This document shows positions 8,306 through 33,215 of a stretch of 64,000 nucleotides of DNA, in pieces (position 1 is the first letter of the stretch; the number at the start of each line of letters is the position of its first letter). Under the pieces are notes generated by a model. That model searched no databases and was not told the origin of the DNA. It worked only from the letters and a program-made list of their open reading frames with translations. This DNA comes from an uncultured Roseicyclus sp. (lineage in GTDB: Bacteria > Pseudomonadota > Alphaproteobacteria > Rhodobacterales > Rhodobacteraceae), in contig CANLEH010000001.1 in the NCBI GenBank assembly GCA_947489665.1, forward strand, positions 1,708,501 through 1,772,500, read 5' to 3'. The position numbers were made by a program, and so were the translations under genes.

Positions 8306-9877
8306 TCAGATGAGATAATTTCGGCTTTGTGATATGGTGCCGTGTGGGGGCACCATTTCACACTTCATAGCACTAATCCGGTCTAACACCTTGAACGGCA
8401 AGGTGGTTTTGGGAGTTCTATACCCTTCGCTCCGGGCATAGGCGAGGCGGTCGGCGAATGCGAGCTTTAGCACCAATCTACGATGCTTCATGTTCTCAGA
8501 AGTCCAGAGTTTCCAAGGGTTTGAGAGGAAGTTCAGGGCGAGTTCTATCTTTTTTGACTTTTGGCGCGGATCAAGGCCCGTTTGGGCGCGTTTTTCTTCG
8601 GCCAAAAGCTTCTCACTTTCGAGCTTTTCGATCTTGCGCTCATAGGCGCGGGTCGCATGTTCGCTGTCCGTGTCGGCGAGCTTGTCCAACAGATTGTCCA
8701 ATTGGCGGTCCAGCTTCAGGATTTCTCGCGTGAGAGAGGCCTTGACCGCTTCAAATTGCTTCGCGCGTTGATCCCATGCGTCGTTGAACATCGCGCGCAC
8801 GATCTGGATCAATCCCGCACTGGGTCGCATGTCTTTGAGCAAATCTGCAAAATCACCCTCTAGCTTATCGCGTGGGATGGACTTGCCGTAGGAGGCACAG
8901 CCTTTCGTGTGACACAGATAATACGCATAACGCCGCCCGGTGCAGGACTTGGATTCACAACTACGGAGCGGCTTTTCGCAATCTGCGCACGTCACAAAGC
9001 CGCGTAATGCAAACTTCTGGCCCAAATCCTTGCGCTTTGGCGCATGGGCCTGTCCGTCAATCCGCTCAAGAATTCTCTCATGTACGACGACAGTGATGAG
9101 CGGCACATGATTGCCCTTGCGCAAAGGGATTTCCCACTTTGGGGCGTGAACGAAGCCCGCATAGAGCGGATGCTTTAGGATGTCAGCGACACGCTGCATC
9201 CGAAGTTTGTGGCCATTCTTCGATACGGGAAAGTCGGGCTGATCTGCTAAGAAGCGATGAACCTCGGCCTGAGTGCCGAAGTGACCGGAGGCAAAGCCTT
9301 CTAAGGCCTCTGTGACGATGGAGGCCACGGGTTCATCGCGGACTAGGATTTTGCCCTCCCCCTTCGTCTGGACGTATTTGTAGCCCGGCATCGTCTTAAA
9401 GGGCCAAAAGCCGTTCAAAACTCGGGCTCGCATCCGATTGGCGGACAACTCTTTGATCTTCTCACGCTGATGCTGTGAGACGGATGCCAACATATTCTCA
9501 ATCAGCTTATCATCGCTGGTCTCGCCAAAGGTCATGGACGGGCTTTCCAGCTTGCCACCTGCTTTGGCCAGCAGTTCTCGCAACTGCCAATGCACCGTCA
9601 CATCGCGGGAGAAGCGGCTGATGTCGTCAATGATGACGGAATGGGTCTCATTCTGGGTTAGCAGCCAGGCGAGCATGGCTTGCATGGCAGGACGCTCAGT
9701 CAAACCACCGGACACGCCGCGATCTTGGAAGACCTTCGCGACGTTGTAGCCCTTGCGTTTGGCGTATTCCTCGCAGCGCAATTGCTGGGACGCCAGCCCG
9801 TCGCCCTCATCAAGTTGCTTGGTGCTGGAGACCCTGCAGTAGATCACTGCATCGGTTGACAGGTTGTCTGTACTCAT
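8306..9877 (-). CDS. large serine recombinase
   Basis: 523 residues. The N-terminal resolvase/invertase catalytic domain starts with 'YCRVSSTKQ' (catalytic Ser17) and includes 'DDISRFSRD'. Then come the recombinase domain and a Cys-rich zinc ribbon ('CADCEKPL...CESKSC...CHTKGC'), followed by a coiled-coil stretch ('ILKLDRQLDNLLDKLADT'). Large serine recombinases integrate and excise elements between attP and attB without high sequence homology. Its start overlaps the stop of the 105-residue gene by ATGA. Its last 17 codons overlap a hairpin and a 14-bp sequence repeated at 33202-33215, so the tail after 'MVPP' may be encoded by DNA outside the element. Confidence 0.93.
   Translation of the reverse strand: MSTDNLSTDAVIYCRVSSTKQLDEGDGLASQQLRCEEYAKRKGYNVAKVFQDRGVSGGLTERPAMQAMLAWLLTQNETHSVIIDDISRFSRDVTVHWQLRELLAKAGGKLESPSMTFGETSDDKLIENMLASVSQHQREKIKELSANRMRARVLNGFWPFKTMPGYKYVQTKGEGKILVRDEPVASIVTEALEGFASGHFGTQAEVHRFLADQPDFPVSKNGHKLRMQRVADILKHPLYAGFVHAPKWEIPLRKGNHVPLITVVVHERILERIDGQAHAPKRKDLGQKFALRGFVTCADCEKPLRSCESKSCTGRRYAYYLCHTKGCASYGKSIPRDKLEGDFADLLKDMRPSAGLIQIVRAMFNDAWDQRAKQFEAVKASLTREILKLDRQLDNLLDKLADTDSEHATRAYERKIEKLESEKLLAEEKRAQTGLDPRQKSKKIELALNFLSNPWKLWTSENMKHRRLVLKLAFADRLAYARSEGYRTPKTTLPFKVLDRISAMKCEMVPPHGTISQSRNYLI
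8334..8356. repeat. hairpin in recombinase 3' end (candidate att core)
   Basis: ATGGTGCC (8334-8341) pairs perfectly with GGCACCAT (8349-8356) around a 7-base loop. It lies within the last codons of the serine recombinase and overlaps the 14-bp direct repeat. Serine-recombinase att sites are short and partly dyad-symmetric, so this fits an attachment site; a role in transcript termination is the alternative. Confidence 0.45.
8345..8358. repeat. left copy of 14-bp direct repeat (candidate attL)
   Basis: The sequence TGGGGGCACCATTT is identical to 33202-33215. In both places the minus strand reads Met-Val-Pro-Pro in the same frame. A 14-bp match in a 64-kb window can arise by chance. The support is its position at the 3' end of the recombinase gene and, for the other copy, at the outer end of the mobilisation operon. 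Confidence 0.5.
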
Positions 9878-10191
9878 GGGGCCTCCTTTTGTTGCTTGGG
9901 TTCGTCGGTGGAATTTGCCGCTTGGGCGAATTCAGACCGAGCGTTGCAATTTCCAGAGCCTAGCATGGATGATGATCCATCCGCCGCGATGGGTCCGCCA
10001 TTGCCGAGTTGTCCACAGCTATCTTGGAGGTGCAGCTCAAAATCGAGGTCCACGAAGGAGATTACCCAAAGCCAAAGCACTTCTGCCATCTCCTTCTTTT
10101 CAGGGTCGCTTAAATCGAGCGAGTCTAACATCGCCTGATAGCGGTCCACATCGAGGGTGAGGGATCTGTAGCTCTGGCGGTCGCCTGGCAT
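9874..10191 (-). CDS. small hypothetical protein coupled to the recombinase
   Basis: 105 residues, acidic and soluble. It reads 'SLTLDVDRYQAMLDSLDLSDPEKKEMAEVLWLWVISFVDLDFELH' followed by a low-complexity tail. Its stop overlaps the recombinase start (ATGA at 9874-9877), so the pair is one transcription unit. Small proteins with this 'DxxRYQAxLD..L' pattern are, as I recall, often found next to serine recombinases in alphaproteobacteria, which would suggest a directionality or accessory factor. That association was not checked and the function is unknown. Confidence 0.75.
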   Translation of the reverse strand: MPGDRQSYRSLTLDVDRYQAMLDSLDLSDPEKKEMAEVLWLWVISFVDLDFELHLQDSCGQLGNGGPIAADGSSSMLGSGNCNARSEFAQAANSTDEPKQQKEAP

Positions 10192-10367
10192 CGCGGTTTC
10201 TCCTGTCTGTTGCGTGTCTCCGTCGTTGTTTCAAAAAAGAACGAAGAGTGAACATCGCAGTTATTTTGGAAGCTGGCAAGTAAAATTTATAAAATACAAT
10301 GGGATGCACAAAATGCGCACGACCCCATTCCCAGCCTGATGAGGGCGGAATAGGGCCGTGCTTTCGC

Positions 10368-10625
10368 TCAGTGTTCGTGTCCTTGATCGTGCGATTTGCC
10401 CTGATCCTGGCTGCGCGCTTCTTTGTACTCTTCGCGGCGTTGCTCGCGCAGCGTAAGGCGACCATCTACGGGCGTCGCATCCATCTGCACATCATAGCCC
10501 TTGCCATCTTTGTGTCCCCAGGCCGCACCGACGCGGTTCCAGGCGGCGTCTTTGTCTTGCCCACGATCACGGACGGAATAGGCGATATAGTCGGGGCCTT
10601 TTGGGCGAGTGTTGTCTTCTGACAT
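10368..10625 (-). CDS. small hydrophilic conserved-type hypothetical protein
   Basis: 85 residues, highly charged, with an N-terminal 'PDYIAYSVRDRGQDKDAAWNR' block and a Lys/Gln/His-rich tail. A good ribosome-binding site (AAAGGAG) precedes the ATG at 10625. There is no signal peptide or membrane segment. It lies 11 bp downstream of the next small gene on the same strand and the two probably share a transcript. Proteins of this look recur on mobile elements, but I cannot name a function. Confidence 0.65.
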   Translation of the reverse strand: MSEDNTRPKGPDYIAYSVRDRGQDKDAAWNRVGAAWGHKDGKGYDVQMDATPVDGRLTLREQRREEYKEARSQDQGKSHDQGHEH

Positions 10626-10636
10626 GAGAACTCCTT

Positions 10637-10912
10637 TCAGCGGGACCGTGTAAAGCCATCGCGCGCGCGAGACTTCTGGGCGTCGAGACGTTTGGTGATG
10701 TATCCGATGCGGGCTTCGCGTTGCGCTTCCACATCGCGAACAACCTCAACGGCGACTTCACCCTTGGGTTTAAGAACCGCTTCCAACACAGGCGTGGCGC
10801 GGAACTTCTCCAGGGTATCGCGCTCCAAATCACTGACCGGGGAATTGACGACATCGTTTGCAGGCGTTTTGGGCACCTGACTGTGCCAGCCTTGCTGCAG
10901 GGATTTGGGCAT
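10637..10912 (-). CDS. small hypothetical protein
   Basis: 91 residues, charged, soluble ('DLERDTLEKFRATPVLEAVLKPKGEVAVEVVRDVEAQREARIGYI'). A strong AAGGAGG ribosome-binding site lies before the ATG at 10912. It is first of a two-gene unit with the 85-residue protein. No domain recognised. Confidence 0.65.
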   Translation of the reverse strand: MPKSLQQGWHSQVPKTPANDVVNSPVSDLERDTLEKFRATPVLEAVLKPKGEVAVEVVRDVEAQREARIGYITKRLDAQKSRARDGFTRSR

Positions 10913-11032
10913 GTGAGCCTCCTTCTAAAAAGGGAAAGAAGAGGCCAAGAGATGTCCAAAGCCTCCTTTGGAGGCTGTATCACGCGGCAGACAAAGGGCC
11001 GGGGGATAGGGTCTGCAAGCACTAGCTACGAT

Positions 11033-11061
11033 TTGACAAGTGGTAACATATATTATACCAT
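11033..11061 (+). promoter_or_regulatory. toxin-antitoxin promoter with palindromic operator
   Basis: TTGACA (11033-11038) is a perfect -35 box. With 17-bp spacing the -10 would be TACCAT (11056-11061); TATACC with a 15-bp spacer is an alternative. A 20-bp dyad (11041-11060: TGGTA, two bases, ATATAT, two bases, TACCA) fills the spacer. An operator overlapping the promoter just before the toxin gene is the usual layout for autorepression by a type II antitoxin; that regulation is inferred. Confidence 0.6.
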
Positions 11062-11070
11062 TAAAGATGT

Positions 11071-11394: not shown

Positions 11395-11396
11395 GC

Positions 11397-13715: not shown

Positions 13716-13772
13716 CAAGGGTCGAGCGTCCTCGCGTAGCCCAGTCTCGACGCAGAATGAAGTGGAAAGGCC

Positions 13773-15035: not shown

Positions 15036-16631
15036 TTAGCCCAAAGTTCGCATCCGCCCGCTGGCATATTGCGGATAGTGCGCGAGATTGGCTGACACAG
15101 GACCCTCTTGCACGAGCAGCATCTTGTGTCCCCAGAACGTTTTCACCCGCACGGAACCACTCGGCGGATAGAACGGATTGGGCATGAACCGCCGGGCCAT
15201 CCAGGCCTCGTTGAAATAGGGCCTACGATCAATTTCCAACGGATGCTCCAGCCCATCCACAAAGGCGTAGCCCTTGTCCGGCGGGGTCTGGATCACCTCG
15301 TCTGGTGTGCGCAGCCAACGGTTTTGCTTCGTCCGCACTTCCGCCGCCTGCTTGTGGTGTTGGTAGTTCAGCATCGCATTGAACGGATCTCCGCCGTTGA
15401 TGAAATCCTGCGCGGCCTTCTTTCGGGCCAGTTCAGCACGCGATTGCTGTAACGTGTCATCATATTCCAGCGTCTCGGTCCCCAGCATGCGGGATAGGCG
15501 CTCAGCAGATGGTAAATCACGCACAGCGAAGTAAATCGCCAACGCAGCGCTGGAAGAGATCAGGTCTCCAGCCCGAGGGCCAAGCCCATCCATTTGGGTG
15601 GTGTTTTGAAACACGGCAAATGGTTGGATGCCGATGCCTGCGCCATAGGTGTAGAGCTTTGGCACCATCGGGAATTTCCCTAACTGCCCGCATTCATCTA
15701 TGATCCAGGTTTGCTTGGGAGCCTGCGGCGCACGTGCCTTGTAGATCATGCCTGCCACAAACAGGCTCTTGATGATCGGCGACCAGGGTTCGACGAACTC
15801 GGCAGGCGGCATCAGATAGACTTGGTATCGCTGATCACTTGAGCAGAGTTGCTTCATGGAAAAATCAAATGGTGGGCTGACAGAGGCCATCAGGGTCGGA
15901 TCGGACAAGGGTGCCAGGGCCCGAAAAATCTCCCCTAAAATGCCTTGAAAGCCGTTCGAGGGATTGTCGCGCGATTGGGCGATTTCCTCTTCGACGCGCT
16001 CAGAGATCGGAAAACCGCATTCGGTCATTTCAAACCCGAAATCCAACCAGGCATCCCCGCCTCCAGGGATCAAATTGATTTTTTCGTAGAGATCGGGCAG
16101 GGTCAGCACCCCGTTGATCGAGACCAGCGTTAGGATCACCGCTTCCAGAAACTCACGGGCACGCCCTTCGAAGAAGATGCCCTGGGCTGATCCCGTGGAG
16201 ACAACCAGATTTTCGCAAAAGACTTTGACATCAGAGACAAGGGATGGACTGTCTTTTCTGATGAAATCTACGGGATTGATGCGATTCTTGGGCAATCCGT
16301 GGAGTCCATTGGGGTTCCAATAGATGCAGTATTTCTTGTCGGGGATTTGGTCCTGGCTGATGAACGCGATCTCGCCCTTGATGTCGAGGATGACGAGCGT
16401 ATGCCGGGCGATGCCGAAACAGGCATTGTAAGCCAAGACTGAGGTCAGCTTGCCCGATCTCGCGCCTGCGACCAACAAAGCGCCCCCCATTCCTGAAAAG
16501 AACAGCGGCTTCTTACCTTTGAAGCCAAAGAATAGGGCGTCCTCAGTTTGCTCGTGTAGCCCGGCTTTGCGGATCTCTTGGTCTGAGCTGAGTTCAGCAC
16601 TTCCAAATCGGAAGTATTCGTTATGATCCAT
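15036..16631 (-). CDS. type IV coupling protein, TraG/VirD4 family
   Basis: 531 residues. P-loop-like 'AGARSGKLTS', Walker B region 'LVILDIKGE', and 'TWIIDECGQ' with the downstream sensor stretch 'FAVFQNTTQ' are characteristic of conjugative coupling ATPases that bring a relaxosome to a type IV secretion channel. The first Gly of the classical P-loop is Ala and the residue after Lys is Leu. Start at 16631 has GGAG 7 bases upstream; the ATG at 16637 is too close to it. The N-terminus lacks the usual pair of membrane helices. Two very small membrane proteins are encoded immediately upstream. No mating-pore (VirB/Trb) genes occur in the element, so it would depend on another conjugative element. 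Confidence 0.88.
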   Translation of the reverse strand: MDHNEYFRFGSAELSSDQEIRKAGLHEQTEDALFFGFKGKKPLFFSGMGGALLVAGARSGKLTSVLAYNACFGIARHTLVILDIKGEIAFISQDQIPDKKYCIYWNPNGLHGLPKNRINPVDFIRKDSPSLVSDVKVFCENLVVSTGSAQGIFFEGRAREFLEAVILTLVSINGVLTLPDLYEKINLIPGGGDAWLDFGFEMTECGFPISERVEEEIAQSRDNPSNGFQGILGEIFRALAPLSDPTLMASVSPPFDFSMKQLCSSDQRYQVYLMPPAEFVEPWSPIIKSLFVAGMIYKARAPQAPKQTWIIDECGQLGKFPMVPKLYTYGAGIGIQPFAVFQNTTQMDGLGPRAGDLISSSAALAIYFAVRDLPSAERLSRMLGTETLEYDDTLQQSRAELARKKAAQDFINGGDPFNAMLNYQHHKQAAEVRTKQNRWLRTPDEVIQTPPDKGYAFVDGLEHPLEIDRRPYFNEAWMARRFMPNPFYPPSGSVRVKTFWGHKMLLVQEGPVSANLAHYPQYASGRMRTLG

Positions 16632-16704
16632 GATCATACTCCAACAAAAAAGGGCCGGACTGCACATGGCAGCCCGGCCCGTAGGTCGAGGGGGAGCTAT
16701 TTGT

Positions 16705-16818: not shown

Positions 16819-16841
16819 ATCGGTTCTCCTTCTTGATTGGG

Positions 16842-20539: not shown

Positions 20540-21157
20540 ATGAGACCAGAAACCTTCCTCTTGGGGCCGATGCACGATTTGGCACCTACGGCTCGGTTGA
20601 TAGGATATGCCAGAGTTTCGACCGAAGATCAGAAACTTGATATGCAGCTGCAAAGCCTGAAAGTGGCGGGCTGCGACCAGGTCTTCTATGACCACGGGAT
20701 TTCTGGTGGCAAGGCCAACAGGCCGGGACTCGAAGAGGCATTGTCGAACCTTGCCGCAGGCGACATGCTAATCGTCTACAAACTGGACCGGCTGGGGCGT
20801 TCAGTGCTGCATCTCGCAGATTTGCTCGCTCGTCTCGACAACCAAGACGTTCAGTTTTGGTCGATGACGGAGGGCATCAATACCGCTACGCCGGGCGGCA
20901 AACTGATCTACCACATCTTCGCCGCTGTAGCTGAATTCCACCGCGACCTCATACGCGAGAATACCCGCAACGGTCTTCGGGCCGCCCGCGAGCGTGGCTC
21001 GAGACTCGGTCGGCCTAGACTGTTGAGCATCGAAAACATCTTGGCCGCGCATCGCTCAATGCAGCAAGACGGACAAACCCTCGCGGAGGCCGCCACGCGT
21101 TTCAAAGTATCGGAAAGCACCCTTCAGCGCGGCTTGCGGCGGTGTTCGTTGTTTTGA
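20540..21157 (+). CDS. small serine resolvase/invertase (Tn3/Pin type)
   Basis: 205 residues. Catalytic domain 'LIGYARVSTEDQKLDMQLQSL' (nucleophile Ser in 'ARVST'), 'YKLDRLGRSVLHL', 'FFHIF..EFHRDLIRENT' type helix E and a C-terminal HTH ('LAEAATRFKVSESTLQRGLRR'). It is of normal length. AGGAGAG precedes the ATG at 20540. Such enzymes resolve cointegrates or invert DNA. No transposase is adjacent, so it is likely an element-maintenance resolvase or a transposon remnant. It is unlike the large recombinase at 8.3 kb and was probably acquired separately. Confidence 0.9.
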   Translation: MRPETFLLGPMHDLAPTARLIGYARVSTEDQKLDMQLQSLKVAGCDQVFYDHGISGGKANRPGLEEALSNLAAGDMLIVYKLDRLGRSVLHLADLLARLDNQDVQFWSMTEGINTATPGGKLIYHIFAAVAEFHRDLIRENTRNGLRAARERGSRLGRPRLLSIENILAAHRSMQQDGQTLAEAATRFKVSESTLQRGLRRCSLF

Positions 21158-21741: not shown

Positions 21742-23661
21742 TTATTTCGCGGCAACTTCGTGTGGATAAGACGCATAACCAAGGCCTATTCGGGATACGC
21801 TTGATCCAACCCGCTGAACAAAGTTAAGAGCATATTCATATCTGAGCTTTGCCACCAAAGTGAGAACTTCTTCTGGCAACTCAATCGTGGTGTCGCCCAA
21901 CCGTGGAAGAATTACCGTGCATTTGCCGTCAGTGATCAAGCCTTGGTTCTTTGCCACAAACATTCGCCAAGTAACTTTCTGCGTGGCCGGTTTTGATTCG
22001 TCAGCGGTCGTCCGCAACCCCAAACAAAGGATTTTCCCAGTTTCTGGGTCTTCTATGAAGCAATAGGAGCCACTGTTGATGTGGTCGCTATCAACATCAT
22101 CTGCCTTAATCGGAACGAGACGCATAGCAGTAAAGGGGCGAAGGCTTCGGTTATCTCCGCCGAAGGCGATTGTGTTTTGGCCGGGCTGGAGATCACATGC
22201 AGGGGTAGCACAAATCCACCAATCCCCATTAGCTTGTTTGAGTATATGCCCGCTGTCCAGCTGGGCGTCGCCTGCCTTTTGCGGAAGTGTTGAAACGTAG
22301 CTGTTGTATTGGTTCACAGCATCGCGTTTGATGCCGTTGTCTTTCAAATCGATGCCATAATGGGATGCAAAGGCATCGCCGTTGGCTTCGTCAGCTTGCA
22401 CGATTTTCTCACCAAAACTCACAAGCTCATCCTCGATGAGGAAGGCAATCGCTTCGGACTGACGAGCGACATGTTCCTTCAGCTTAAATTCGCGGGACAA
22501 CTTTGCTTGTTCTGGAAGAGCTCCGGCTCTCGTTGGTTCCCGAATGCCGTCGTAGAATTGGGCAAACACGCTCGCCTTAGCCAGTGACTTGTCTTCTGCT
22601 GCAACACCGATGCTGTTGAGAGCATAACGATACTTAGCCGAGAGTAGTCTCGACGGTGTTGGCTGCCAGTCTTCCAATGCTAGCTGCAGCTCATTCAATA
22701 AATCACCGGGTCCTTTCTTCACAAATGCAACAAAACCCTTTGACGTACGCAGCCACTTTTGGTCTGCGTTCGCGTTCCAGCTGAGTCCCTCGAAGGTAGC
22801 ATCATTGAATTCATCGAGCCGCGGCTTTTCACTTTCACGGATTGCCCAATGTAGAAATGAGCGCAGTTGCCCGCCCTTCAAACCAATATCCGACCCCCAA
22901 CCGTGCAAAGCGGCAAGTGGACCTTTTCCCTGCATGAACTCACCAAAAACTTCGCGAGAAGACAGTTTTGGGTTTCTGATTGCCAAGTATAGATCGTCTG
23001 GAAAGAATTCTCTCAGCTTGGAACGATCGAAAGTACCCTCATCTTCGAGTTCATCGAGCTTTTCATCTAGTCCAGCTAGCTCTTGCTGAACTTTCGCATC
23101 AACCAGCGACGTGTGGCTCTGCATCAATGAAACAAGGCACTCTGTCATCACTTTCTCTAGATCATCTTCTCCAGTATGCAGAAGAACTAGATTGAAGTGC
23201 CTGTTGGCAAGCACCATGCGCAGAATTTCTCTTGCCTTCGCGCCCCCCAACCCTCCGGCCGCACCTTCCAGGTTATAGTCCAAGACAAGTAGGTCTGATT
23301 GGTGAAGGTGACTGGCTAGTTCAGACGCACTTTCTTGAGGGTTTGTGCCTGACACTACTTCGGCAGGCGTAGGGGCCAGAGCATCATGTATGTCAATGAC
23401 AAAACCTGGCTTCTGGCCTCTAAACTCTTTGATTATCGCCAATGGTTCGCTTGGGTTTTTCTCAACCCAGTCCTTGCCAACTGAACGCTCTTCCAAGGCC
23501 TTGTCTTGGGCGCCACCCACAATTTTCGAGTTCAAGATTTCTTCCCAAGTCGGATACTGATCATCCACTATCAGAACCGATCGCAGTGGTTCGATGAATG
23601 CTTCGTGGATCAAGCTTGAAAACGTGGCCGCTTCAGTCAAAGCGTACTCCTCTGAAATCAA
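21742..23661 (-). CDS. response-regulator-like protein with large unknown C-terminus
   Basis: 639 residues. The N-terminus has receiver-domain elements: 'VLIVDDQYP' (acidic pair Asp33-Asp34), 'LLVLDYNLEG' (phospho-acceptor candidate Asp128) and 'LVLLHTGED' (Thr163). The spacing between Asp34 and Asp128 is about 90 residues, roughly twice the usual value, so an insertion (residues 40-115) interrupts the domain. Residues 200-639 match nothing I recognise. There is no HTH and no nuclease motif. The start overlaps the end of the two-GHKL ATPase gene by 29 bp, so they are coupled and likely a phosphorelay pair. The C-terminus is the natural candidate for an effector. Confidence 0.7.
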   Translation of the reverse strand: MISEEYALTEAATFSSLIHEAFIEPLRSVLIVDDQYPTWEEILNSKIVGGAQDKALEERSVGKDWVEKNPSEPLAIIKEFRGQKPGFVIDIHDALAPTPAEVVSGTNPQESASELASHLHQSDLLVLDYNLEGAAGGLGGAKAREILRMVLANRHFNLVLLHTGEDDLEKVMTECLVSLMQSHTSLVDAKVQQELAGLDEKLDELEDEGTFDRSKLREFFPDDLYLAIRNPKLSSREVFGEFMQGKGPLAALHGWGSDIGLKGGQLRSFLHWAIRESEKPRLDEFNDATFEGLSWNANADQKWLRTSKGFVAFVKKGPGDLLNELQLALEDWQPTPSRLLSAKYRYALNSIGVAAEDKSLAKASVFAQFYDGIREPTRAGALPEQAKLSREFKLKEHVARQSEAIAFLIEDELVSFGEKIVQADEANGDAFASHYGIDLKDNGIKRDAVNQYNSYVSTLPQKAGDAQLDSGHILKQANGDWWICATPACDLQPGQNTIAFGGDNRSLRPFTAMRLVPIKADDVDSDHINSGSYCFIEDPETGKILCLGLRTTADESKPATQKVTWRMFVAKNQGLITDGKCTVILPRLGDTTIELPEEVLTLVAKLRYEYALNFVQRVGSSVSRIGLGYASYPHEVAAK

Positions 23662-26602
23662 TTGAGAAATTTGCGCCGCTCAGAACTCTTTGCTCGGACT
23701 CATTCAAGTGGCGAATGGAGTGGCCACCTGCCATCAAGTTTACACGACAGAGATAGAGGCCAATGCCACGCCCGCCGCTCGATTTGCGTGTGAAGAACAT
23801 CTTGAAAAGACTCTCTTGATCCAACGGATCAATCCCCGGCCCGTTATCGGCAACAATAACCTTTCCATCGTCGGCCGAGAGGAACACTTCCGGATTTTCA
23901 ACATGAGAATTTACCAACCAATAGACACTGTTGTTCACCAGATTGACAAAGACTGGCAGAATTCTGGAAGGTTGTTCCTCTAGAGAGAGGGACTTAAAGT
24001 CCTCGGACGCATGAATTTCGATCCCTCGGCTTTCTGAAACAACCCTAAAGAAGCGCTTCAAGTAGTCTATGATTTCTTGGCCTGTCATAGTTCGTCTAGT
24101 TCGCGAACCCGACACTTTGAGCGGTGAGAGGAAATCGAGTTGTTGACTGAGCGCCTCAAACCCTTCTTCAACTAGATGAGTTCCAGGTACATCTCCAACC
24201 GCCTTGATCTGTCGAAGACCTTCCCGGACCATGCGCTCATTGCTACTGAATTCATGCCCTAAAATTTCGACCGTTACTCCCAACTGTGCCACTTGATTTA
24301 GCTGATTAAGGTCGTCGCGAAGCGCGGCGTTATCTGCAATCCCTTGTCTTGCAATGAGCTCAATGTTGATGTTCTCACTCATGACCTCAAGCGTGTCCAA
24401 GTAAGATTGGAATGTGTCTTCGTTCTCCGCGTCCAGCTTCGCCTGCAGCAATTTCATTTGTTCGAGCGCTTCGTCTAGACCAAGGCGCTTCAATCGAACT
24501 TGCTCCACGAGTGGCATTGCCAGCGAATGAAAGATTTTGTTGCGCTCGTCGAAGAGAGCGTTCACGCGATCTCGTTCTGAACCTTGCAGCTCGTCTATGG
24601 ATTTACGCCAACTTCTTAGTCGCGATTGAAGCCGGCTCGCATGACTGTTCAGCTGCTTTTGCGCAAGCTCTTCAGGCTTTGCAGGATTGATTTTCTCAAT
24701 AGCTGTCGCCCGCCTGTCCTCTAACAGTTTGATACGTTCCTGCATTTCGGTAAACAAAGCTCTGAAACGTCGGTAGTCCTCTTCTGCCGACCCAAGCCTA
24801 GATGGAGCTCCTGACAACCTAAGATCACTCAAGCGCTCGCTCAAACTATCAATTGTTGATTGTGCATCCTCAAGCTGTTGTTGGTTTTCAATCGATATTT
24901 CAGTCACAACCTGGCTTGTGCTCTCATACAAGTCCATGAGAGCTGGCAAGGCTTTCCTTAGCCGGACACGAAACTTCCGAGCGTTCTTCTTCGCAAGCTC
25001 TCGCCGCTCGGCCTCAGCTTTTTCTGCGAGGTTTCTCGCTTGTATCTCTGGTAGTATTTCCTTGCGTAGGCTTGAGTTGCTCCCGAAATATTCATAGGCC
25101 GCACGCTTGAGAATATTCATTACTAAAGCTCGCAGTGCTTTTGCACTGCGGTTGTCGATAAACCCTTCTCGCCCAGCCTTGTCTCGAAGGTTTGGGTTCC
25201 TTTCTCTAGAAATCGCCACCCGACCAAACATCCGGCGCGCGTTCCAGTATTCCCGGCCAGCGTTGATGCTGCGATTGGTTTCGATCTGAAAGAAATCATT
25301 GTCGACGCGACCGTAAGGTAGCACCCTGAGGCCATTTCGAAACAGCAGGAATCCACCGTGTTGATCTGCAAGCGACTCGAACCGAGCCCAGTCTGCATCG
25401 GACAAATTCGAGTTGGTTCTGGTCCGTTCATATGTTGCGACGTGAATGCCAAATGGTCCCACAAAAGTTGTGGGACCATTTGGCAGCTTGAAGTCTTTCG
25501 GTGGGTAGATGACATAGTCGGAACCGAGTTTGCGCCATTCCCCAAAGGCTTTCACCTGCCCACGAAAGACGCCGTCAGCATCAACATTTCCCGATAGGAC
25601 ATGCTCTAGTTCTTCGGTAACGGCCCGGTTTATGACATCTCGTTCGTCCTCGACGACGGGTTTTGCGATTTCACCAACCCAAGTTTTCACCTCATAGGTA
25701 AAATCAGGGTCGAAAGCATTGTGTTCATTGGAATCAGGATCAACATAAGGGTCGGTAAAGGCAGACAACGTCGAGAAAAAGGCCTCTCTTATTTTGTCAA
25801 CATTTCCGTCAGGCTCGATCGAGGGCAACTGAGCTCTGAGATCGTAGTTGATCTCAGAGACGATAAGTGCAGTTCCATGTTCTTTTTCGCCTTTCCACAC
25901 AGACCAAGGTTCGAAATGCTTATCTTCGAATACCGCGTTGATGATCGTACCGGCTATTCGGTTGGATGGAGGCTCTATTTCTGGATCAGACTCCTGCACA
26001 ACCCGGTCATATGTTTCCCAAGCAACCTTCAAACGCTTAGCCCTCTCAGGCTCAGTAGGCGACCCCCATAGGTTGTCTGTAAGGCTATCAAACAACCCAG
26101 GAAGCAATTGACTAAGTTCGCTCTTTTTTTCGAACCGTGTTACTGGAATTTGAATGTCTGATAGGACCAAGTACGGGTTCTCAAAGATCCTCCAGTCTAG
26201 AAGTGCGGCAACAAAATTCTCACCTTTGCGTTTGGTTACAACCAATAGCAAAGGTCCAAGATTGGCTGAGGACAAGCGCCCGATGCCCTTCTGTCCCTGT
26301 TTGGAGCGTTTTTTTAGCCCGTTCCGGTCTTTCTCATCGGACAGCTCGTTATCAATCTTCGAGTCGGTGCCAATCACTAGCCACCGGTTGAGAAACTCTT
26401 CGTAGTTCATACCGTGGCCATCATCGAAAATAGCTGCCACAGGTTCAGGGTCATCATATATGTGGAGACTTACGTTCCGGGCATATGCGTCATACGCGTT
26501 CTTCCACAGTTCCGAAACGGCGGTGGGGCAATCTGCAATTTGTTCTCGCCCCAGATGGTCGACTGTCCGAGCTAGGGTTCGAAATGCTTGTGTTTCAATC
26601 AT
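23633..26602 (-). CDS. dual-GHKL protein: MORC/Hsp90-like ATPase fused to histidine-kinase module
   Basis: 989 residues. The N-terminal GHKL ATPase has the N-box 'ELWKNAYDA' (Glu31, Asn35, Asp38), G1 'DDGHGM' (60-65) and G2 'GQKGIGRLSS' (103-112), as in MORC/MutL-type ATPases. A long helical, coiled-coil middle (about 530-770) follows. Near residue 783 is a histidine box-like 'EILGHEFSSN', then a second GHKL fold: N-box 'NLVNNSVYW' (about 887), G1 'DNGPG' (about 919), F-box 'LFKMFFTRKSSG' and G2 'GGRGIGLYL' (about 943). The start overlaps the methyltransferase stop (ATGA, 26599-26602). MORC-type ATPases are known partners in bacterial restriction-modification islands; the fusion to a kinase end beside a receiver protein suggests a signalling relay in defence. 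Confidence 0.85.
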   Translation of the reverse strand: MIETQAFRTLARTVDHLGREQIADCPTAVSELWKNAYDAYARNVSLHIYDDPEPVAAIFDDGHGMNYEEFLNRWLVIGTDSKIDNELSDEKDRNGLKKRSKQGQKGIGRLSSANLGPLLLVVTKRKGENFVAALLDWRIFENPYLVLSDIQIPVTRFEKKSELSQLLPGLFDSLTDNLWGSPTEPERAKRLKVAWETYDRVVQESDPEIEPPSNRIAGTIINAVFEDKHFEPWSVWKGEKEHGTALIVSEINYDLRAQLPSIEPDGNVDKIREAFFSTLSAFTDPYVDPDSNEHNAFDPDFTYEVKTWVGEIAKPVVEDERDVINRAVTEELEHVLSGNVDADGVFRGQVKAFGEWRKLGSDYVIYPPKDFKLPNGPTTFVGPFGIHVATYERTRTNSNLSDADWARFESLADQHGGFLLFRNGLRVLPYGRVDNDFFQIETNRSINAGREYWNARRMFGRVAISRERNPNLRDKAGREGFIDNRSAKALRALVMNILKRAAYEYFGSNSSLRKEILPEIQARNLAEKAEAERRELAKKNARKFRVRLRKALPALMDLYESTSQVVTEISIENQQQLEDAQSTIDSLSERLSDLRLSGAPSRLGSAEEDYRRFRALFTEMQERIKLLEDRRATAIEKINPAKPEELAQKQLNSHASRLQSRLRSWRKSIDELQGSERDRVNALFDERNKIFHSLAMPLVEQVRLKRLGLDEALEQMKLLQAKLDAENEDTFQSYLDTLEVMSENINIELIARQGIADNAALRDDLNQLNQVAQLGVTVEILGHEFSSNERMVREGLRQIKAVGDVPGTHLVEEGFEALSQQLDFLSPLKVSGSRTRRTMTGQEIIDYLKRFFRVVSESRGIEIHASEDFKSLSLEEQPSRILPVFVNLVNNSVYWLVNSHVENPEVFLSADDGKVIVADNGPGIDPLDQESLFKMFFTRKSSGGRGIGLYLCRVNLMAGGHSIRHLNESEQRVLSGANFSIDFRGVRFD

Positions 26603-27750
26603 TGAAACTCGTTTCTTAGAGCTGGCTCGAATTCTGTATCGGACACGCTCGGTCTGTCTGAATCGCTTGCAATCAGATGTTTCCTGATTGCACTGGTTAG
26701 AACCCTCCCCAGTTCGACGGGAACGGCATTGCCAATTTGTCGTCCTGCCGCGGTCAGGCCGCCCTCAAACACTATGTGATCAGGAAATGTTTGAATCCTC
26801 GCGGCCTGCCTTGCGGTAATGCCATGATGCTCGGTTGGGTGGACAAAACGGCCCTTAGACGGGTTGATGCAAGCGGTAGTCATCGTAGGCGCAGGTTTGC
26901 TAGGATCTATTCGACCGTAAACGTCTTTATGCCCATCATGATCTTTGTGACATGCGAGCAACCTTCCGGAGTCTTTTCTACTACCGCCATTAATGGGTGT
27001 GTTCTTAAATGCTTGGATTAGTTCAGTACCATGGTTCATGTGTATGTTGTTTGCATCGCTGTCAGACGCCGGATCAAAAACGCGGCCACAAGATACCCAA
27101 GGCTCCAATCCATCGATTGCCCTGGCTGGATCGGAGTGCGTTTGTCTTGGGGGCCAAGAGAATTGTGGCGGAACCTGCACATCACGTCGAATACCCAGAA
27201 CGAAAACGCGTTTTCTCCTTTGTGGAACGCCGAAATCACGTGCGTCGAGAACAGTTGGCTGACGTACATCGTAGCCAGCCCGTTCACCCTCGTCATAGAA
27301 TTTATCTAGGTAGGGCTTGTGGCGATCCCATAAAATGCCGGGAACGTTCTCCATCAGAAACACCCGGGGTTTCAGTGCTTTGACGAAGTCAAAGTAGGCA
27401 TGAACCAGTTCATTCCGAGGGTCGTTAACACCAGCATCTAGAATTCTGTGCGTGGAAAATCCTTGGCAGGGTGGACCACCCAGTACCAAATCGCACGATC
27501 TATCTCGGCAATACAAATCTGCGATTTCTACCGGATCGTACTCGAGGATGCTGTGATCGAGCACAACAGGGCTAGCGCCGTTAGACGAATTGAACACGTT
27601 CCGTTTGTAGGTTTGAACGGCGAATTTCTCGTTCTCAATAGCGAACTTAACATCGAAACCTGATCGTATCGCACCGAGCGAAAACCCGCCTGCGCCAGCG
27701 AACAAGTCGACGGCTGTTGGCAGTGATCCACTTTGATTGTTGTCGAACAT
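26599..27750 (-). CDS. DNA (cytosine-5) methyltransferase
   Basis: 383 residues with all main motifs: I 'DLFAGAGGFSLG' (15-26), IV 'GGPPCQGFS' (catalytic Cys95), VI 'ENVPG', VIII 'RRKRVFVLG', IX 'TARQAARIQTFPD' and X 'GRQIGNAVP'. It should methylate cytosine in a short DNA sequence using SAM. It is first in a three-gene operon (ATGA-coupled) with the dual-GHKL protein and the receiver-like protein. No cognate restriction endonuclease is recognisable nearby, so it may protect self DNA from an effector carried by the partners. No ribosome-binding site was clearly seen before the ATG at 27750. Confidence 0.95.
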   Translation of the reverse strand: MFDNNQSGSLPTAVDLFAGAGGFSLGAIRSGFDVKFAIENEKFAVQTYKRNVFNSSNGASPVVLDHSILEYDPVEIADLYCRDRSCDLVLGGPPCQGFSTHRILDAGVNDPRNELVHAYFDFVKALKPRVFLMENVPGILWDRHKPYLDKFYDEGERAGYDVRQPTVLDARDFGVPQRRKRVFVLGIRRDVQVPPQFSWPPRQTHSDPARAIDGLEPWVSCGRVFDPASDSDANNIHMNHGTELIQAFKNTPINGGSRKDSGRLLACHKDHDGHKDVYGRIDPSKPAPTMTTACINPSKGRFVHPTEHHGITARQAARIQTFPDHIVFEGGLTAAGRQIGNAVPVELGRVLTSAIRKHLIASDSDRPSVSDTEFEPALRNEFQ

Positions 27751-28481: not shown

Positions 28482-30683
28482 ATGAGTAGAAGCGTGGATA
28501 CACGAAGCCTTAGCCATCCTCGAGCCGTTACGTCCATCAAGGACCCGGTTCACGGAAGCATAAGTCTGACAAGTTTCGAACGAGAAGTGGTTGATGGCGA
28601 ACAATTTCAACGCCTGCATCAAATTCTGCAAAACTCAACAACTTATGTCGCCTATCCGGCCAATAAGAACAGTCGGTTTTGCCACTCGCTAGGTGTGTGT
28701 CACCTGTCCGGAACGCTATTCGCAAATGCACTGAGAAACGCGACAAAAAGCGATCTTGAGGACTTCATTGAGCAGATTGCTCAATTCTTTATTCACGCGC
28801 AACTGATGCCCGGAAGCTACCGTTCTGAAGACCTAGTTTCGGCATGGAAACAGACCATATCCGGTCATTCGGGTTTCAGGCACAGGCCCACGTTACGTTA
28901 CGAAAATGGTCACCCACTCGAGAGCCTGAGCTTGCGAAGCGAATACCCTCATGACGAACGCCGGCAAGACCGAAAGTTCAGAGCTGGGTTTGTCGTAGAC
29001 ACGATCTGGCAAGCAATTAGGATCTGTGGCCTGGTGCATGACATCGGGCACCTGCCGATGAGCCACTCCCTAGAAGGCGCAGTTGAGAAATTTGAGCCTC
29101 GCTTCCGTAAATTTATCAAGCAGGGAACAGCACCCTCTAAGGCCAAAAGGAAAGAAATCGAGCGTACCCTTGATTCCGCGTGGGATACGCTTTTAGGCAA
29201 GGCAGAGTACGACTCACTTTTTGTAGAACTTCAGGGGGTGCTGGCAGCCGTCTACAACGCTGAGCAAATTTCAGAGATCAGAAGCCTATTCGCAAGCTTC
29301 CCAGAGCATGAAAAACGAAGCCTTCTAATTCTCTATTCTCTACAAGAAAATGGCATTTATGGATTTACTGGGCATCTTGCGGAATATCGGAAGCTTATCT
29401 ATCGCATTGCACATTTGATTTTGTTGTCAAGCTTAAGCACTGAGTATAGTGGCGGGCAAGAGGTGCCTGGCCCAAAAAACTCTGCGTTTCGGTTTCTGAA
29501 ATTGATTATCGCGGGTACCATCGACGCTGATCGGATGGACTATACGGTAAGAGATGGGATGAGTTGCGGCAGTGAAATTGGGCAATATAGCGCGGTCGAT
29601 ATTCTGGAAGCAGCGACACTATTTCGAGACAAAAGAGATCAAAGATTCAAGATAGGGTATTTTTATCGATCCCTTCCTGAGATTGAGAACTATTTTTCGC
29701 AACGGCACCTGGGCTACAAGCATCTCATATATCATAGAACGTCATCACGCACTGAAACTGCCCTGCAATACGCAACGGCTTCGATCTTTGAGTATTGCTT
29801 GGCGCACCCAACAGATCCCATCACCCAGTACTTCGCGAGACTAGGATTTGTCCGCGAAAAATCAGGAAAACTGGACGCTGTATTTCCGGTAAGCCTAGTT
29901 GGTGTCGATGGTATTAATTCAGATATCCCTCTTCTTGATGACTCAAAATTCCGAAGTTTTCTTGATTGGACACTGGAGGCTCTAAAAGCAAAGCTACCAC
30001 CCAGTTTTGATGTGGGCGACGGACTGGAAGCCCAAATAGTTTTGTTGCTTCAAGTTGTCCTGCGCCGGAAATTTGAACATGTATACGACCCCTTTAAAGA
30101 CACTAGCATTACGCCACGCGCGATCCTGGCGCTCGATCGGTTGTGTGGCGCGTTTACAGCTGAAGAGCGGAATGGACAGTATAAAGCGCTTCTTCAGCTT
30201 ACACTTCAAGAACGCTATGAGCTCATAAGGCGCGCGATTGTCAAGCATGAGACACTGCGCAACGAAGTTTTGAAACTGGCAATGTCTTCCCTTAACGACG
30301 AAATAGCTGGCCGAGCGCTTATTCTTACATCTACGCAAAAACCCAAAATATATGATCATGACTTTTCTCAAACAAAAGGAGAGGAGATCTACCTTACCTA
30401 TAATGGAGTTCGGGAAGATGAATTTGTGACAGTTAAGCCTGTGATACACCCATCTGTAACTCTGCGTGCAATGAGTTCAATTTACGAGAAGGAATTTCGC
30501 TTTAATTTCTATTTTATTTCTGATAATTTAAAATCGAATGAATGCCTTATTTCCGCAATTAACGATGCGATGGATAACGCATTTCTTTCTGGTTTGCCAC
30601 CAGCTATACGACACGCTGCAAAGTCCGCGACGGAAGCAGCACGGACTTTGCAAGAAAGGAATGAAGAAGATGTGCCTACCTGA
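28482..30683 (+). CDS. HD-domain phosphohydrolase, SAMHD1/dGTPase-like
   Basis: 733 residues. N-terminal motifs of dNTP triphosphohydrolase-type HD proteins: 'IKDPVHGSI', 'FQRLHQI', 'RFCHSLGVCHL' (first metal His), 'GLVHDIGHLPMSHSLE' (HD pair and downstream His) and 'GTIDADRMDYTVRD' (last metal Asp). These enzymes hydrolyse dNTPs to nucleosides and triphosphate; family members deplete dNTPs during phage infection. The C-terminal third is unassigned. Start: ATG 28482 preferred, GTG 28464 possible; neither has a clear ribosome-binding site. It overlaps the following small gene by 14 bp. Low GC compared with the chromosome flanks suggests acquisition as cargo. Confidence 0.85.
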   Translation: MSRSVDTRSLSHPRAVTSIKDPVHGSISLTSFEREVVDGEQFQRLHQILQNSTTYVAYPANKNSRFCHSLGVCHLSGTLFANALRNATKSDLEDFIEQIAQFFIHAQLMPGSYRSEDLVSAWKQTISGHSGFRHRPTLRYENGHPLESLSLRSEYPHDERRQDRKFRAGFVVDTIWQAIRICGLVHDIGHLPMSHSLEGAVEKFEPRFRKFIKQGTAPSKAKRKEIERTLDSAWDTLLGKAEYDSLFVELQGVLAAVYNAEQISEIRSLFASFPEHEKRSLLILYSLQENGIYGFTGHLAEYRKLIYRIAHLILLSSLSTEYSGGQEVPGPKNSAFRFLKLIIAGTIDADRMDYTVRDGMSCGSEIGQYSAVDILEAATLFRDKRDQRFKIGYFYRSLPEIENYFSQRHLGYKHLIYHRTSSRTETALQYATASIFEYCLAHPTDPITQYFARLGFVREKSGKLDAVFPVSLVGVDGINSDIPLLDDSKFRSFLDWTLEALKAKLPPSFDVGDGLEAQIVLLLQVVLRRKFEHVYDPFKDTSITPRAILALDRLCGAFTAEERNGQYKALLQLTLQERYELIRRAIVKHETLRNEVLKLAMSSLNDEIAGRALILTSTQKPKIYDHDFSQTKGEEIYLTYNGVREDEFVTVKPVIHPSVTLRAMSSIYEKEFRFNFYFISDNLKSNECLISAINDAMDNAFLSGLPPAIRHAAKSATEAARTLQERNEEDVPT

Positions 30684-30984
30684 GACGCGCCAGGCGTATG
30701 TGGTGCTTAGAGCTTTTGAACAAGCGGCTAAGCCAGTCACCAACCCCGAACTACGAGAAAAGATTGGGGGTCTCCTTAAACCATTTGACCTGGAATTTGT
30801 TGAAGATCTTGGCCCGGATCGATTGGAGAAAATTCTGTTTAAATTTGCGAAAGGCAGTGCAACAGCGGTGGATGTACATGGTAAACGATTCATTACATCA
30901 GAAGGTGTTGCTCTGCGTAGTGCGATTGAGCCTATTGTTCTCGCTGACTTTCCCGAACTTGTCGATGAAGTAGAACCTGCGTGA
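30670..30984 (+). CDS. small hypothetical protein coupled to the HD enzyme
   Basis: 104 residues, soluble ('TRQAYVVLRAFEQAAKPVTNPELREKIGGLLKPFDLEFVEDLGPDRLEKILFKFAKGSATAVDVHGKRFITSEG'). The start at 30670 has AAAGGA about 9 bases upstream and lies inside the end of the HD gene, so the pair is coupled. The alternating helix-strand pattern could be a winged helix. It may be a regulator or immunity factor of the HD enzyme; function unknown. Confidence 0.65.
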   Translation: MCLPETRQAYVVLRAFEQAAKPVTNPELREKIGGLLKPFDLEFVEDLGPDRLEKILFKFAKGSATAVDVHGKRFITSEGVALRSAIEPIVLADFPELVDEVEPA

Positions 30985-31361
30985 TTGATGCTAACTGTAC
31001 AATTCGCTCTTGCGCTCCCCGTGCCGCTTAGGACGATTGATTGACCAAAAGAGTCGCGCGCCGAAGGCGACAATAGGCTCGCATCTCCTCACATCATTGT
31101 TTGATCGTTTCTTCGTTAGTATCCAAACATGAAGTTGACCTTGTCTTTTATTGGTTATCGCCGCAAGAGGTGTGTGCTTGTGCTGGACCCCAAAGTATCA
31201 GTCAATTCAGCTTGTTGATTAGGTGCCAATCAAATGCGTATCCAGCCAATACTGGACTCAGATCAAGCGAATTCTGCTCATGGTCAATCGCCGTAGCTAG
31301 CTTAGCGTCCGACACTCGGGCCATCTCTGTTGCGAGTGTGTCGTGGCCGGTTGTTCGGTTG
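30985..31361. other. intergenic region between HD pair and relaxase 3' end
   Basis: About 375 bp at a convergent junction. No gene with a ribosome-binding site was found on either strand and no strong terminator hairpin was recognised. It is the natural border between the defence-like cargo and the mobilisation operon. Confidence 0.35.
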
Positions 31362-32627
31362 TTATCTTCGCTTTCTGTAGACTTCTCGGCGTTCCTTTTT
31401 CTCAGGTTGCACGGCCGTTAGGACTTTGATGTCCTGTTCAAGCTCTTTCTTTGTGGACTTTCGTTCAACTGAAGCGGACCCGGCACTTTGTATTTGCTTC
31501 TTTCGATGAGCTTCGTGCGCAGCCTTTAGTTTGGCTCTTTCGCTCTCATCGCGGCGTTTAGCGTTCTCAGCTTCGATCTGGTTCTGCGCTTTAATTTGCT
31601 TTCGCTTGCCCGTTACCCAATCGAACAGCCCCCGTACACCCGTCCGAACTCGCGCATCTCTGGCCGCTTGCTCGGCCAGTGACCGCTCAGTTTGTCGTCC
31701 CTCAAGCCTTTGCGTTTCTGCCTGGCGCGAATTTCGCGCTGCTTGTTGATCAGTACGCAGCCGTTCGAGCTTTTGTTTGGCAGCTTGGTGTTGCTCTTCC
31801 TGTAGCTCAAGCAGGCGGTCTGTGACGCGCTGTGCCGCAACTCGATGCGCTTCAATCTTTGATGGCAGATCGTCAGGTTGGCCCAAGCGGTCCCGTACCT
31901 GCTTTGCTTTCAAGCCAGTGTAACGCGACACCGCGTATGCTTCGCCGTTGTGATCGACGGCGACATGCCCACGCCGATCACCGCGTGCCAAGATCAACCC
32001 ATGAGCCTTGAGTGCGTTTGCAAATCCAGTTTTTCCATCAGAGATCGACCAAGCATCTTGGAACACCTCTTTCATCTTCGTTGGGTCACGCTTGACTCGC
32101 TTGCACTGTTGCCACTCCTGCAGGGTGAAATTGCGCGGATCGCGTTCTTCATGCCGCACAAATCCGCGCGGCATTTTCCATCCGTGATCTAGATAAAAGT
32201 CGCGCGCAACCTCTTGAAGCTTGGTTTTGGTGAATGAAAGTTGCACCGCTCGCATGTTTTCAATATCGATGCGGCACCACACGCTATGGGCATGCCGCCG
32301 CATTTGACCGTCTTCACCGATCTTCTCATGAAAGACGATGGCACGTGGCTGGCCTTCCAAGCCTAGGGCCTTCTCCGCACGGTTCACAGCGTCTTCAAAA
32401 TCCTCGGTACGGGCTTTCGCATCTTGTGGCGGATTGAGACTTAACGAAAACAGGTGCTGTTTGCATTTGGTACCACGGCTGATCGCATAGCTTTCCTGAA
32501 ACGCGGAATGCAGGTCATTGGACGCAAAGCCACGCATATCATGAACAACAACCCGCTCGTTGTCGTCTTTGAGCAGGTGCCTTGCAAGGTCACGCCCACC
32601 GCCGCGCTGGTTGCCGACTAGGATCAC
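31362..32627 (-). CDS. relaxase / mobilisation nuclease
   Basis: 421 residues. N-terminal relaxase domain starts 'VGNQRGGGRDLARHLLKDD' and has the metal-binding region 'VFHEKIGEDGQMRRHAHSVWCRID' style motif (His100, His112, His114). The C-terminus (about 250-421) is a long, highly charged helix. Relaxases nick oriT and lead the strand into a recipient. I do not see a clear N-terminal catalytic Tyr, so the exact MOB class is uncertain. Its start overlaps the mobC stop (ATGA, 32624-32627). Confidence 0.85.
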   Translation of the reverse strand: MILVGNQRGGGRDLARHLLKDDNERVVVHDMRGFASNDLHSAFQESYAISRGTKCKQHLFSLSLNPPQDAKARTEDFEDAVNRAEKALGLEGQPRAIVFHEKIGEDGQMRRHAHSVWCRIDIENMRAVQLSFTKTKLQEVARDFYLDHGWKMPRGFVRHEERDPRNFTLQEWQQCKRVKRDPTKMKEVFQDAWSISDGKTGFANALKAHGLILARGDRRGHVAVDHNGEAYAVSRYTGLKAKQVRDRLGQPDDLPSKIEAHRVAAQRVTDRLLELQEEQHQAAKQKLERLRTDQQAARNSRQAETQRLEGRQTERSLAEQAARDARVRTGVRGLFDWVTGKRKQIKAQNQIEAENAKRRDESERAKLKAAHEAHRKKQIQSAGSASVERKSTKKELEQDIKVLTAVQPEKKERREVYRKRR

Positions 32628-33073
32628 TGCAATTTTTCCGGTTTGAGACCAAGGGCTTGAACCAAGTCGCTACGCATGGCCTTGACGTCTGACAGCGTTT
32701 GACGGATTTCCGCGACAATGTCGTCGTCCACAGCAAAGCGCCCTTCGTCAACCGCGAGCATCAGGCGATGCATGTTGTTGTAGATGCCGGAACGCCCAAA
32801 CAGCCCGAGGACACGACCCAAAGCCTCGTAATCCTTCACCGGAAACTTGCCGCGCGTCTTCCGTGGCTTCGTTTTCCCGCCGAACAACCGTTCGCGGATG
32901 TAAGCACTGCGCGAAATACCCGCCGCATCCCGCTGCAACTGTTCTTTCTCTTCTTCCGTTACGCGGAACGAGATTGTCTGCGTCGGCGCATCCTTTGCCG
33001 AAGCCGATGAAGTTATCGGTTGAGGTTCATTTACCCCCAGAAAAATCGTCTTAAGAGGTGTCTTCCCGATCAT
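32624..33073 (-). CDS. mobC: MobC-like relaxosome protein (ribbon-helix-helix)
   Basis: 149 residues. A ribbon-helix-helix-like start ('TISFRVTEEEKEQLQRDAAGISRSAYIRERLFG') is followed by a helical domain ('ALGRVLGLFGRSGIYNNMHRLMLAVDEG'), as in MobC/relaxosome accessory proteins that bind oriT and recruit the relaxase. Coupled to the relaxase by ATGA, and its own start overlaps the stop of the preceding 47-residue frame (ATGA, 33070-33073). Symbol given by family resemblance. Confidence 0.85.
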   Translation of the reverse strand: MIGKTPLKTIFLGVNEPQPITSSASAKDAPTQTISFRVTEEEKEQLQRDAAGISRSAYIRERLFGGKTKPRKTRGKFPVKDYEALGRVLGLFGRSGIYNNMHRLMLAVDEGRFAVDDDIVAEIRQTLSDVKAMRSDLVQALGLKPEKLQ

Positions 33074-33213
33074 AGCCGAACCTCCGGCTCATCAACGGAA
33101 ACGGCTGCATTAGAAAGCTGTTGGTCCCAATCCGAGAGTTCATCAAGGACTTGCCCCAGCTCCTCAAAATCAACATCATCTGAGTTCGAGTTTGCTCCGT
33201 TTGGGGGCACCAT
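33070..33213 (-). CDS. orf47: small acidic frame upstream of mobC, possible recombinase tail
   Basis: 47 residues, acidic ('NSNSDDVDFEELGQVLDEL' plus 'LSDWDQQLSN' and a 'VDEPEVRL' end). The stop overlaps the mobC start as ATGA, which argues that it is translated. The ATG at 33213 follows an in-frame stop and has no good ribosome-binding site in this configuration. Its first four codons (Met-Val-Pro-Pro) lie in the 14-bp repeat shared with the end of the serine recombinase, in the same frame. If the element is excised by recombination there, this frame becomes the recombinase's own C-terminal tail. Confidence 0.55.
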   Translation of the reverse strand: MVPPNGANSNSDDVDFEELGQVLDELSDWDQQLSNAAVSVDEPEVRL

Positions 33214-33215
33214 TT
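33202..33215. repeat. right copy of 14-bp direct repeat (candidate attR)
   Basis: Identical to 8345-8358; the bases on either side differ. It marks the outer end of the mobilisation operon and the change to ordinary chromosomal genes (the sulfatase ends 187 bp to the right). See the left copy for the counter-argument from chance. Confidence 0.5.

Follow-up and report, generated by a model that had tools for sequence, protein, structure and literature searches.

A serine integrase gene that may carry its own attachment site and exchange its C-terminal tail at tRNA genes

Why should the last codons of a recombinase gene and the first codons of a distant small open reading frame (ORF) carry the same sequence, on the same strand and in the same frame? 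The question is raised by a 64,000-nucleotide stretch of DNA from an uncultured Roseicyclus sp. (assembly GCA_947489665.1, contig CANLEH010000001.1, positions 1,708,501 to 1,772,500; here called the window), in which TGGGGGCACCATTT is an exact 14-bp repeat with copies at 8345-8358 and 33202-33215. On the minus strand, copy 1 encodes Met-Val-Pro-Pro as residues 508-511 of a large serine recombinase (8306-9877), and copy 2 encodes the same four residues at the start of orf47 (33070-33213), exactly as the initial annotation of the window had placed them. The answer given here, which is very probably correct, is that the recombinase is the integrase of a mobile element, termed element B, whose free-form attachment site (attP) lies in the integrase's own gene; the enzyme would lose its C-terminal tail on integration at a tRNA gene and regain it on excision, with mobilisation (mob) genes placed behind it.

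With at most one mismatch, TGGGGGCACCATTT occurs three times in the 4.13-Mb genome, against no occurrence of a reversed-pattern control, and the repeat is therefore not due to chance. The third copy forms the 3' terminus, with its CCA, of a tRNA-Thr(TGT) gene (about G000:C1:1692925-1693000), located 15.5 kb to the left of the window and 23,855 bp to the left of copy 1. The tRNA copy and copy 1 have 19 bp in common (CCGTGTGGGGGCACCATTT), at one of which copy 2 deviates. Because this third copy is a tRNA-Thr end, copy 1 is where two elements abut in a single tRNA hotspot, namely element A with a tyrosine integrase and element B with the serine recombinase; the initial annotation, in which the tRNA copy was out of view, missed this junction. 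Element B stands out by its lower G+C content (per-kb values of 0.45-0.57 from 8 to 33 kb, against 0.57-0.65 in the DNA to its right).

As integrated, the recombinase gene (minus strand) encodes 523 residues with the Pfam domains Resolvase and Zn_ribbon_recom; PF07508 Recombinase gave no match in it in the Pfam scan, and among 29 proteins the resolvase domain and the zinc ribbon are both found in all 29 and PF07508 in 17. With this protein (P0001) as query, and its own genome counted, 79 of 394 family-level genomes have a match at E <= 1e-30, 21 of 385 class-level ones at E <= 1e-60 and 15 of 398 phylum-level ones at E <= 1e-40, the matching genomes of the phylum search being all the own genome or labelled as the same genus, family or class, in a set whose share of genomes from outside the class is not stated. 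A plasmid search with three queries yielded 2, 2 and 6 records, in none of which a single place covers 80% of the query, and a phage collection gave no match. In most relatives the homology stops at residues ~498-514, with a few alignments reaching 516-523, and the residues that follow MVPP in the window are not conserved; their conservation would have counted against the initial annotation. Past this point, the recombinase frame of most relatives continues into a tRNA gene read antisense; a relative at tRNA-Thr(TGT), L026, reads MVPPHGLEPRTY and then a stop.

This overlap with tRNA genes is a property of the recombinase family, which is alphaproteobacterial. From 100 loci entered, 99 were scored (L178 has no C-terminal match; L037, on the same contig as L012, was omitted beforehand), and 90 of these have a tRNA predicted by ARAGORN, in antisense, at most 45 nt from the expected gene end. 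The isotypes are Arg (28), Thr (20), Leu (12), Ser (10), Ala (7), Tyr (6), Val (4), Glu (2) and Phe (1). The nine recombinases without such a prediction are the window gene, L012, L035, L078, L091, L098, L111, L115 and L166, among which L012 and L166 look like antisense tRNA by eye. At the class loci, 24 of 26 have a tRNA, nearly all at offset 0, and the remaining two appear antisense-tRNA-like by eye. In L035, the recombinase frame enters at the attachment site (att) a sequence that by eye resembles an IS66-type transposase, not a tRNA. Upstream, a same-strand ORF ending between -90 and +60 nt from the recombinase start is present in 56 of 58 elements, and 53 of these 56 ORFs link in one BLAST cluster; the window member, a 105-aa protein (9874-10191, minus strand) that overlaps the recombinase start, is a candidate directionality factor.

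What, then, replaces the tRNA-derived residues in the free form? Stretches of 40 kb were assembled for 20 relatives, and a relaxase match lies on the recombinase strand in 16 of 21 elements, the window included. A tRNA-end repeat beside an attP-like arm could be picked in 11 of the 21 (ten top-ranked, and G254 best by identity), and joining the ends in silico brings a tail of common peptide into the recombinase frame in all 11. A second search for far ends ignored frame and peptide and relied only on a GTTCGA placed 23 nt from the CCA end, together with the final six bases of the tRNA; its spacing rule was learned from the earlier ends, and L109 and L116 are the only new ends there. It covered 56 of 61 elements, leaving out the five without an ARAGORN tRNA (L078, L091, L098, L111 and L115), and gave 55 matches in 29 of the 56. 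All 17 exact matches are followed by a tail in the recombinase frame, with an LxxWxxxL-type motif in 16 (L116 by eye), against 5 of 14 matches with one mismatch in either part and none of 24 with both parts loosened. Together with L101, identified by eye, the 22 tail-bearing ends of this search make 23 bacterial elements with an in-frame 'SNSLFEELExWExxL'-like peptide. The window's copy is orf47, whose 47 codons from Met508 (minus strand) fall into the recombinase frame after in silico excision, and the proposal that orf47 would form the C-terminus of the recombinase gains support from these homologues. Since an open frame of at least 26 codons also follows 16 of the 24 loosest matches, an open frame alone proves little; the case is carried by the peptide held in common, together with its frame and codon pattern.

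The same tail is found naturally fused to a recombinase. A scan of IMG/VR gave 17 loci, and in one of them, the phage contig L218, the integrase ORF (2224-3825) runs uninterrupted through att into LVDISGESSNSFLDILRNWSDALNPYKSTLLAA, with neck and terminase genes among the ORFs scanned, those after the integrase; the contig showed neither a tRNA nor end repeats. Since a single ORF of L218 encodes both recombinase and tail, the tail is part of the integrase and not of the transfer operon alone, and a function in mob coupling alone was dropped for this reason. Moreover, the provirus record G1146 has the in-frame tail at its left end and a recombinase meeting tRNA-Ala at its right end, a junction that is complete in the identical L209. 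Two further arrangements were noted at tail-bearing loci: L074 (G327b) is a 1.6-kb remnant in which a recombinase ORF, apparently without its N-terminus, lies between tRNA-Ser and the tail, and in the tandem array of L042 and L043 (G151) the match of the second recombinase fragment crosses att into the tail region of the first element.

The attachment sites suggest how the tRNA end may be recognised. In the 11 ends first picked by their tRNA-end repeat, the attP arm has GTTCGA (10) or GTTCCA (1) at 23 nt from the CCA end (33184-33189, plus strand, in the window), against 18 nt for the T-loop GTTCRA of the tRNAs. This 5-bp difference between attP and the target site (attB) matches the rule described for the A118-family integrases, in which the zinc-ribbon motif lies 5 bp further out in attP than in attB (PMC3783163). 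Within the recombinase gene, a conserved Leu is encoded by the rare codon TTA in 67 of 78 genes (78 of 90 scored), against 2.7% of 3,049 other Leu codons; the codon lies ~31 nt before the tRNA end in the relatives, and this bias argues that the attP arm inside the gene is held at the DNA level. Trees were built from 91 and 82 of the 99 recombinases, without short or stop-bearing alignment rows and, for the smaller one, also without rows lacking an ARAGORN tRNA. On the 82-recombinase tree, the tRNA isotype changes 28 times, against a shuffled mean of 50.1, and tRNA bases 71-73 change 14 times, against 40.6, although a smaller set of labels by itself also lowers the number of changes. L021 and L022, near-identical recombinases that are close neighbours in the tree, sit at tRNA-Arg and tRNA-Thr, which have their last six bases in common. 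Targets thus appear to switch isotype while the end bases tend to stay, and the overlap of the two integrated ends (attL and attR) locates the crossover, for most elements, within tRNA bases 71-76.

In the mechanism proposed here, attP would lie inside the 3' coding part of the integrase's own gene, and the free form would be one run of small protein, recombinase with its conserved tail, mobC and relaxase, with recombinase-MVPP-NGANSNSDDVDFEEL...-mobC as the predicted circle junction. The zinc ribbon would read the T-loop motif GTTCRA of the target tRNA at the attB spacing and, in attP, that motif placed 5 bp outward, with the crossover falling within the last six tRNA bases. Integration would remove the tail, substitute residues read antisense from the tRNA, restore the tRNA and separate mobC and the relaxase from the integrase operon. 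Excision would rebuild the full integrase gene, which should exist only in the free circle, and place the transfer genes after it. Most likely the tail serves to adjust the integrase for the free state, in that it favours integration between attP and attB, and the mob genes would be hooked onto the same switch.

In the window itself, this scheme is complicated by element A, which extends from the tRNA-Thr gene to 8358 (window positions 25-8358 plus 15.5 kb leftward) and whose tyrosine integrase (6957-8270, minus strand) lies ~75 bp from the middle site. At this middle site (8345-8358, minus strand), the right half is the attP arm of element B within the recombinase gene, and the left half, instead of a tRNA T-arm, is formed by the right end of element A. 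There is no GTTCGA at 18 nt, and the own attL of element B has therefore been broken by element A. The last 12 residues of the recombinase, after MVPP (HGTISQSRNYLI), come from the end of element A. The initial annotation had a tail encoded by flanking DNA in the inserted state, and this part holds, since that tail is not conserved in relatives; the setting differs, as the left site of element B probably originated at tRNA-Thr and it is element A, lying between the tRNA and element B, that now supplies HGTISQSRNYLI. Element A would have entered the same tRNA-Thr later, and element B, having lost the tRNA half of its left site, would be locked in place, as far as its own integrase is concerned, until A has gone, which predicts the exit order A, then B. 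The tRNA-Thr of this genus is an insertion hotspot: the downstream stretches of nine genomes (L118, L144-L155) match neither each other nor the right flank of the window, with the exception of an element-A-like neighbour in G378, where part of the left end of element A (~1.2 kb) has a 91.6%-identical DNA counterpart beside the same tRNA. A DUF7507 repeat protein of 1751 aa is also encoded by element A, as is a large left-end protein that looks helicase-like by eye and whose DNA has this counterpart in G378.

Could the junction instead exist for coupling transfer genes to excision, as the initial annotation had it, with orf47 as a mere linker between recombinase and mobC? The gene overlaps it described are present: the tail stop overlaps the start of the NikA-like mobC (32624-33073, minus strand) in an ATGA at 33073-33070, and mobC in turn overlaps the MobA/VirD2-like relaxase gene (31362-32627, minus strand). 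A match to mobC, the relaxase or both lies beside the tail, on the same strand, in 17 of the 23 tail-bearing bacterial elements, and the tail stop overlaps a start triplet as ATGA in 10 and GTGA in 4 of 18 tails, triplets that are not individually tied to mobC. The linker explanation is nevertheless unlikely, as the tail is conserved in phage contig L218 and at the end of provirus G1146, and occurs in G355, G092, L088, L109, L116 and the remnant G327b, none of which matches the MobC or relaxase of the window, even if a divergent mob set could escape such a search. Given that the tail is kept in a phage and in such elements, mob coupling would be an addition and not its first function; the run from recombinase through orf47 to the mob genes is retained, with orf47 as part of the integrase itself. 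Alternatively, orf47 could be an independent small protein starting at the NTGG of att, with the shared frame a by-product of a shared start codon, and in the main clade this NTGG is indeed ATG, GTG or TTG in the ends seen. This is very hard to reconcile with L084, from a subclade meeting att one base shifted, which has no start codon at att and yet has recombinase and tail shifted alike and in frame, and with the uninterrupted ORF of L218.

It has also to be asked whether the conservation of the tail is only apparent and stems from conserved att DNA, given that its SN residues overlie the GTTCGA motif. The conserved block extends beyond the motif, however, and its third positions vary: across 18 tails, identity at the three codon positions is 0.60/0.76/0.38, and the synonymous (pS) and nonsynonymous (pN) values are 0.83 and 0.32, a pattern absent from the two shifted frames (0.41/0.42 and 0.26/0.48), which leaves this explanation extremely improbable. 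Scarcely more credible is the suggestion that the 14-bp repeats belong to the tyrosine integrase of element A, with the serine recombinase as a passenger and B not its element. The tyrosine integrase does lie close to the middle site, and tRNA genes are described as the usual target of such enzymes (PMC4383910); yet across the class it is the serine recombinase itself that meets the tRNA end, and copy 2 is accompanied by an attP arm of the serine type (GTTCGA at 23 nt), at an end where element B has its own tail and mob genes.

Several observations weigh against an integrase with a removable tail. The circle junctions of the window and the relatives are in silico joins, and no circle of element B was observed. 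In 27 of the 56 elements searched there is no candidate far end, and 7 more have tail-less candidates only; for most elements without a tail-bearing end the sequence covered was at most 20 kb, with 40 kb for G053, G361 and G326. The tail block was chosen by its peptide pattern, which biases the codon statistics. A mismatch between attL and attR at tRNA base 73 in G092 and G003b could be explained by a crossover within the CCA, the two attP arms are by eye not clean mirror images, and the attempt to place the crossover dinucleotide by arm symmetry failed. The comparison with element-free strains called for in the initial annotation yielded no clean empty site in the genus searches, either for the window locus (nine genomes with tRNA-Thr and 1.1-1.5 kb downstream) or for G003 and G300. 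Among the 17 IMG/VR loci, 4 have an ARAGORN tRNA, 1 has the fused tail and 12 have neither; three of the 12 (L208, L213 and L215) are cut at or before att, L208 being identical to the tRNA-bearing L209, and the phage records L203, L204, L205, L207, L214 and L217 end at att in neither tRNA nor tail. The 37-residue C-terminus of L218 has no match in the 16 other IMG/VR records, and AlphaFold renders it as a helix with a pLDDT of ~40, too low to read docking.

Element B may be an integrative mobilizable element. Its right attachment site (attR; 33202-33215, minus strand) holds the first tail codons, and the ORFs scanned include, besides integrase, MobC and relaxase, a T4CP/VirD4-like coupling protein (15036-16667, minus strand). 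A promoter scan gave no matches near attR, against 0.2 in shuffles, and four upstream of the recombinase (1.1 in shuffles), of which a single one is on the recombinase strand. The cargo includes a small serine resolvase (20540-21157, plus strand) and, at 21742-27750 (minus strand), a cassette of Response_reg_2 protein, HEF_HK/HATPase protein and C5 cytosine methylase with a defence-like look. Scans of the window for tRNA genes and Rfam families gave no matches.

In Tn916 and ICEclc, circle formation brings genes or promoters together over the junction but is not known to create an in-frame protein fusion, and the archaeal SSV1-type integrases have tRNA genes as their targets. These suicidal tyrosine integrases likewise have attP inside the integrase gene, which integration splits (PMC8371274), and the window enzyme works like them in this respect; being a serine recombinase, it is not a member of that type, and in place of two parted enzyme halves the bacterial integrase loses only a C-terminal tail. 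With the A118-type large serine integrases it has in common the resolvase domain, the zinc ribbon and, as read from the DNA, the 5-bp attP shift (PMC3783163), features that would place it among the large serine recombinases, whereas tRNA 3' ends as regular targets, attP in its own coding sequence and a state-dependent C-terminus set it apart. The phage phiPam-6 of Paracoccus aminophilus, likened here by its description, is a serine-recombinase phage at a tRNA-Met gene (PMC3925955, PMC6536676), a target that relative L201 has too; among the phages surveyed there, it is the only one with a serine recombinase whose site was identified, and the accessible text describes no link to the integrase 3' end. 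Mycobacteriophage integration-dependent immunity resembles the present case in that attP lies inside a gene and integration at a tRNA alters the C-terminus of its product (PMC9262239), but the altered gene is a repressor and the integrase is of the tyrosine type. In fusions of serine integrases to recombination directionality factors, a fused partner controls integrase direction (PMC5737554), but these are engineered, not natural. In the portions of open-licence papers that the literature search covered, PMC5704250, PMC12884075 and PMC11476347 included, no serine integrase is described with attP in its own 3' coding sequence at tRNA genes, and phiPam-6 and the archaeal suicidal integrases appear to be the nearest known cases.

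Whether the scheme holds for a family of serine integrases, spread across the bacterial class, that read the universal T-loop and the CCA end of tRNA genes is an evenly balanced matter. In such a family, a removable C-terminal domain, and thus an integrase protein that differs by state, would set the direction of recombination, with or without a directionality factor, and the genes lying behind the tail, here the mob operon, would join the free-state operon. Targeting by T-loop and tRNA end suggests why enzymes of this kind, such as L021 and L022, may shift easily between tRNA genes, and the proposal points to a testable way in which serine integrases could have their direction controlled.

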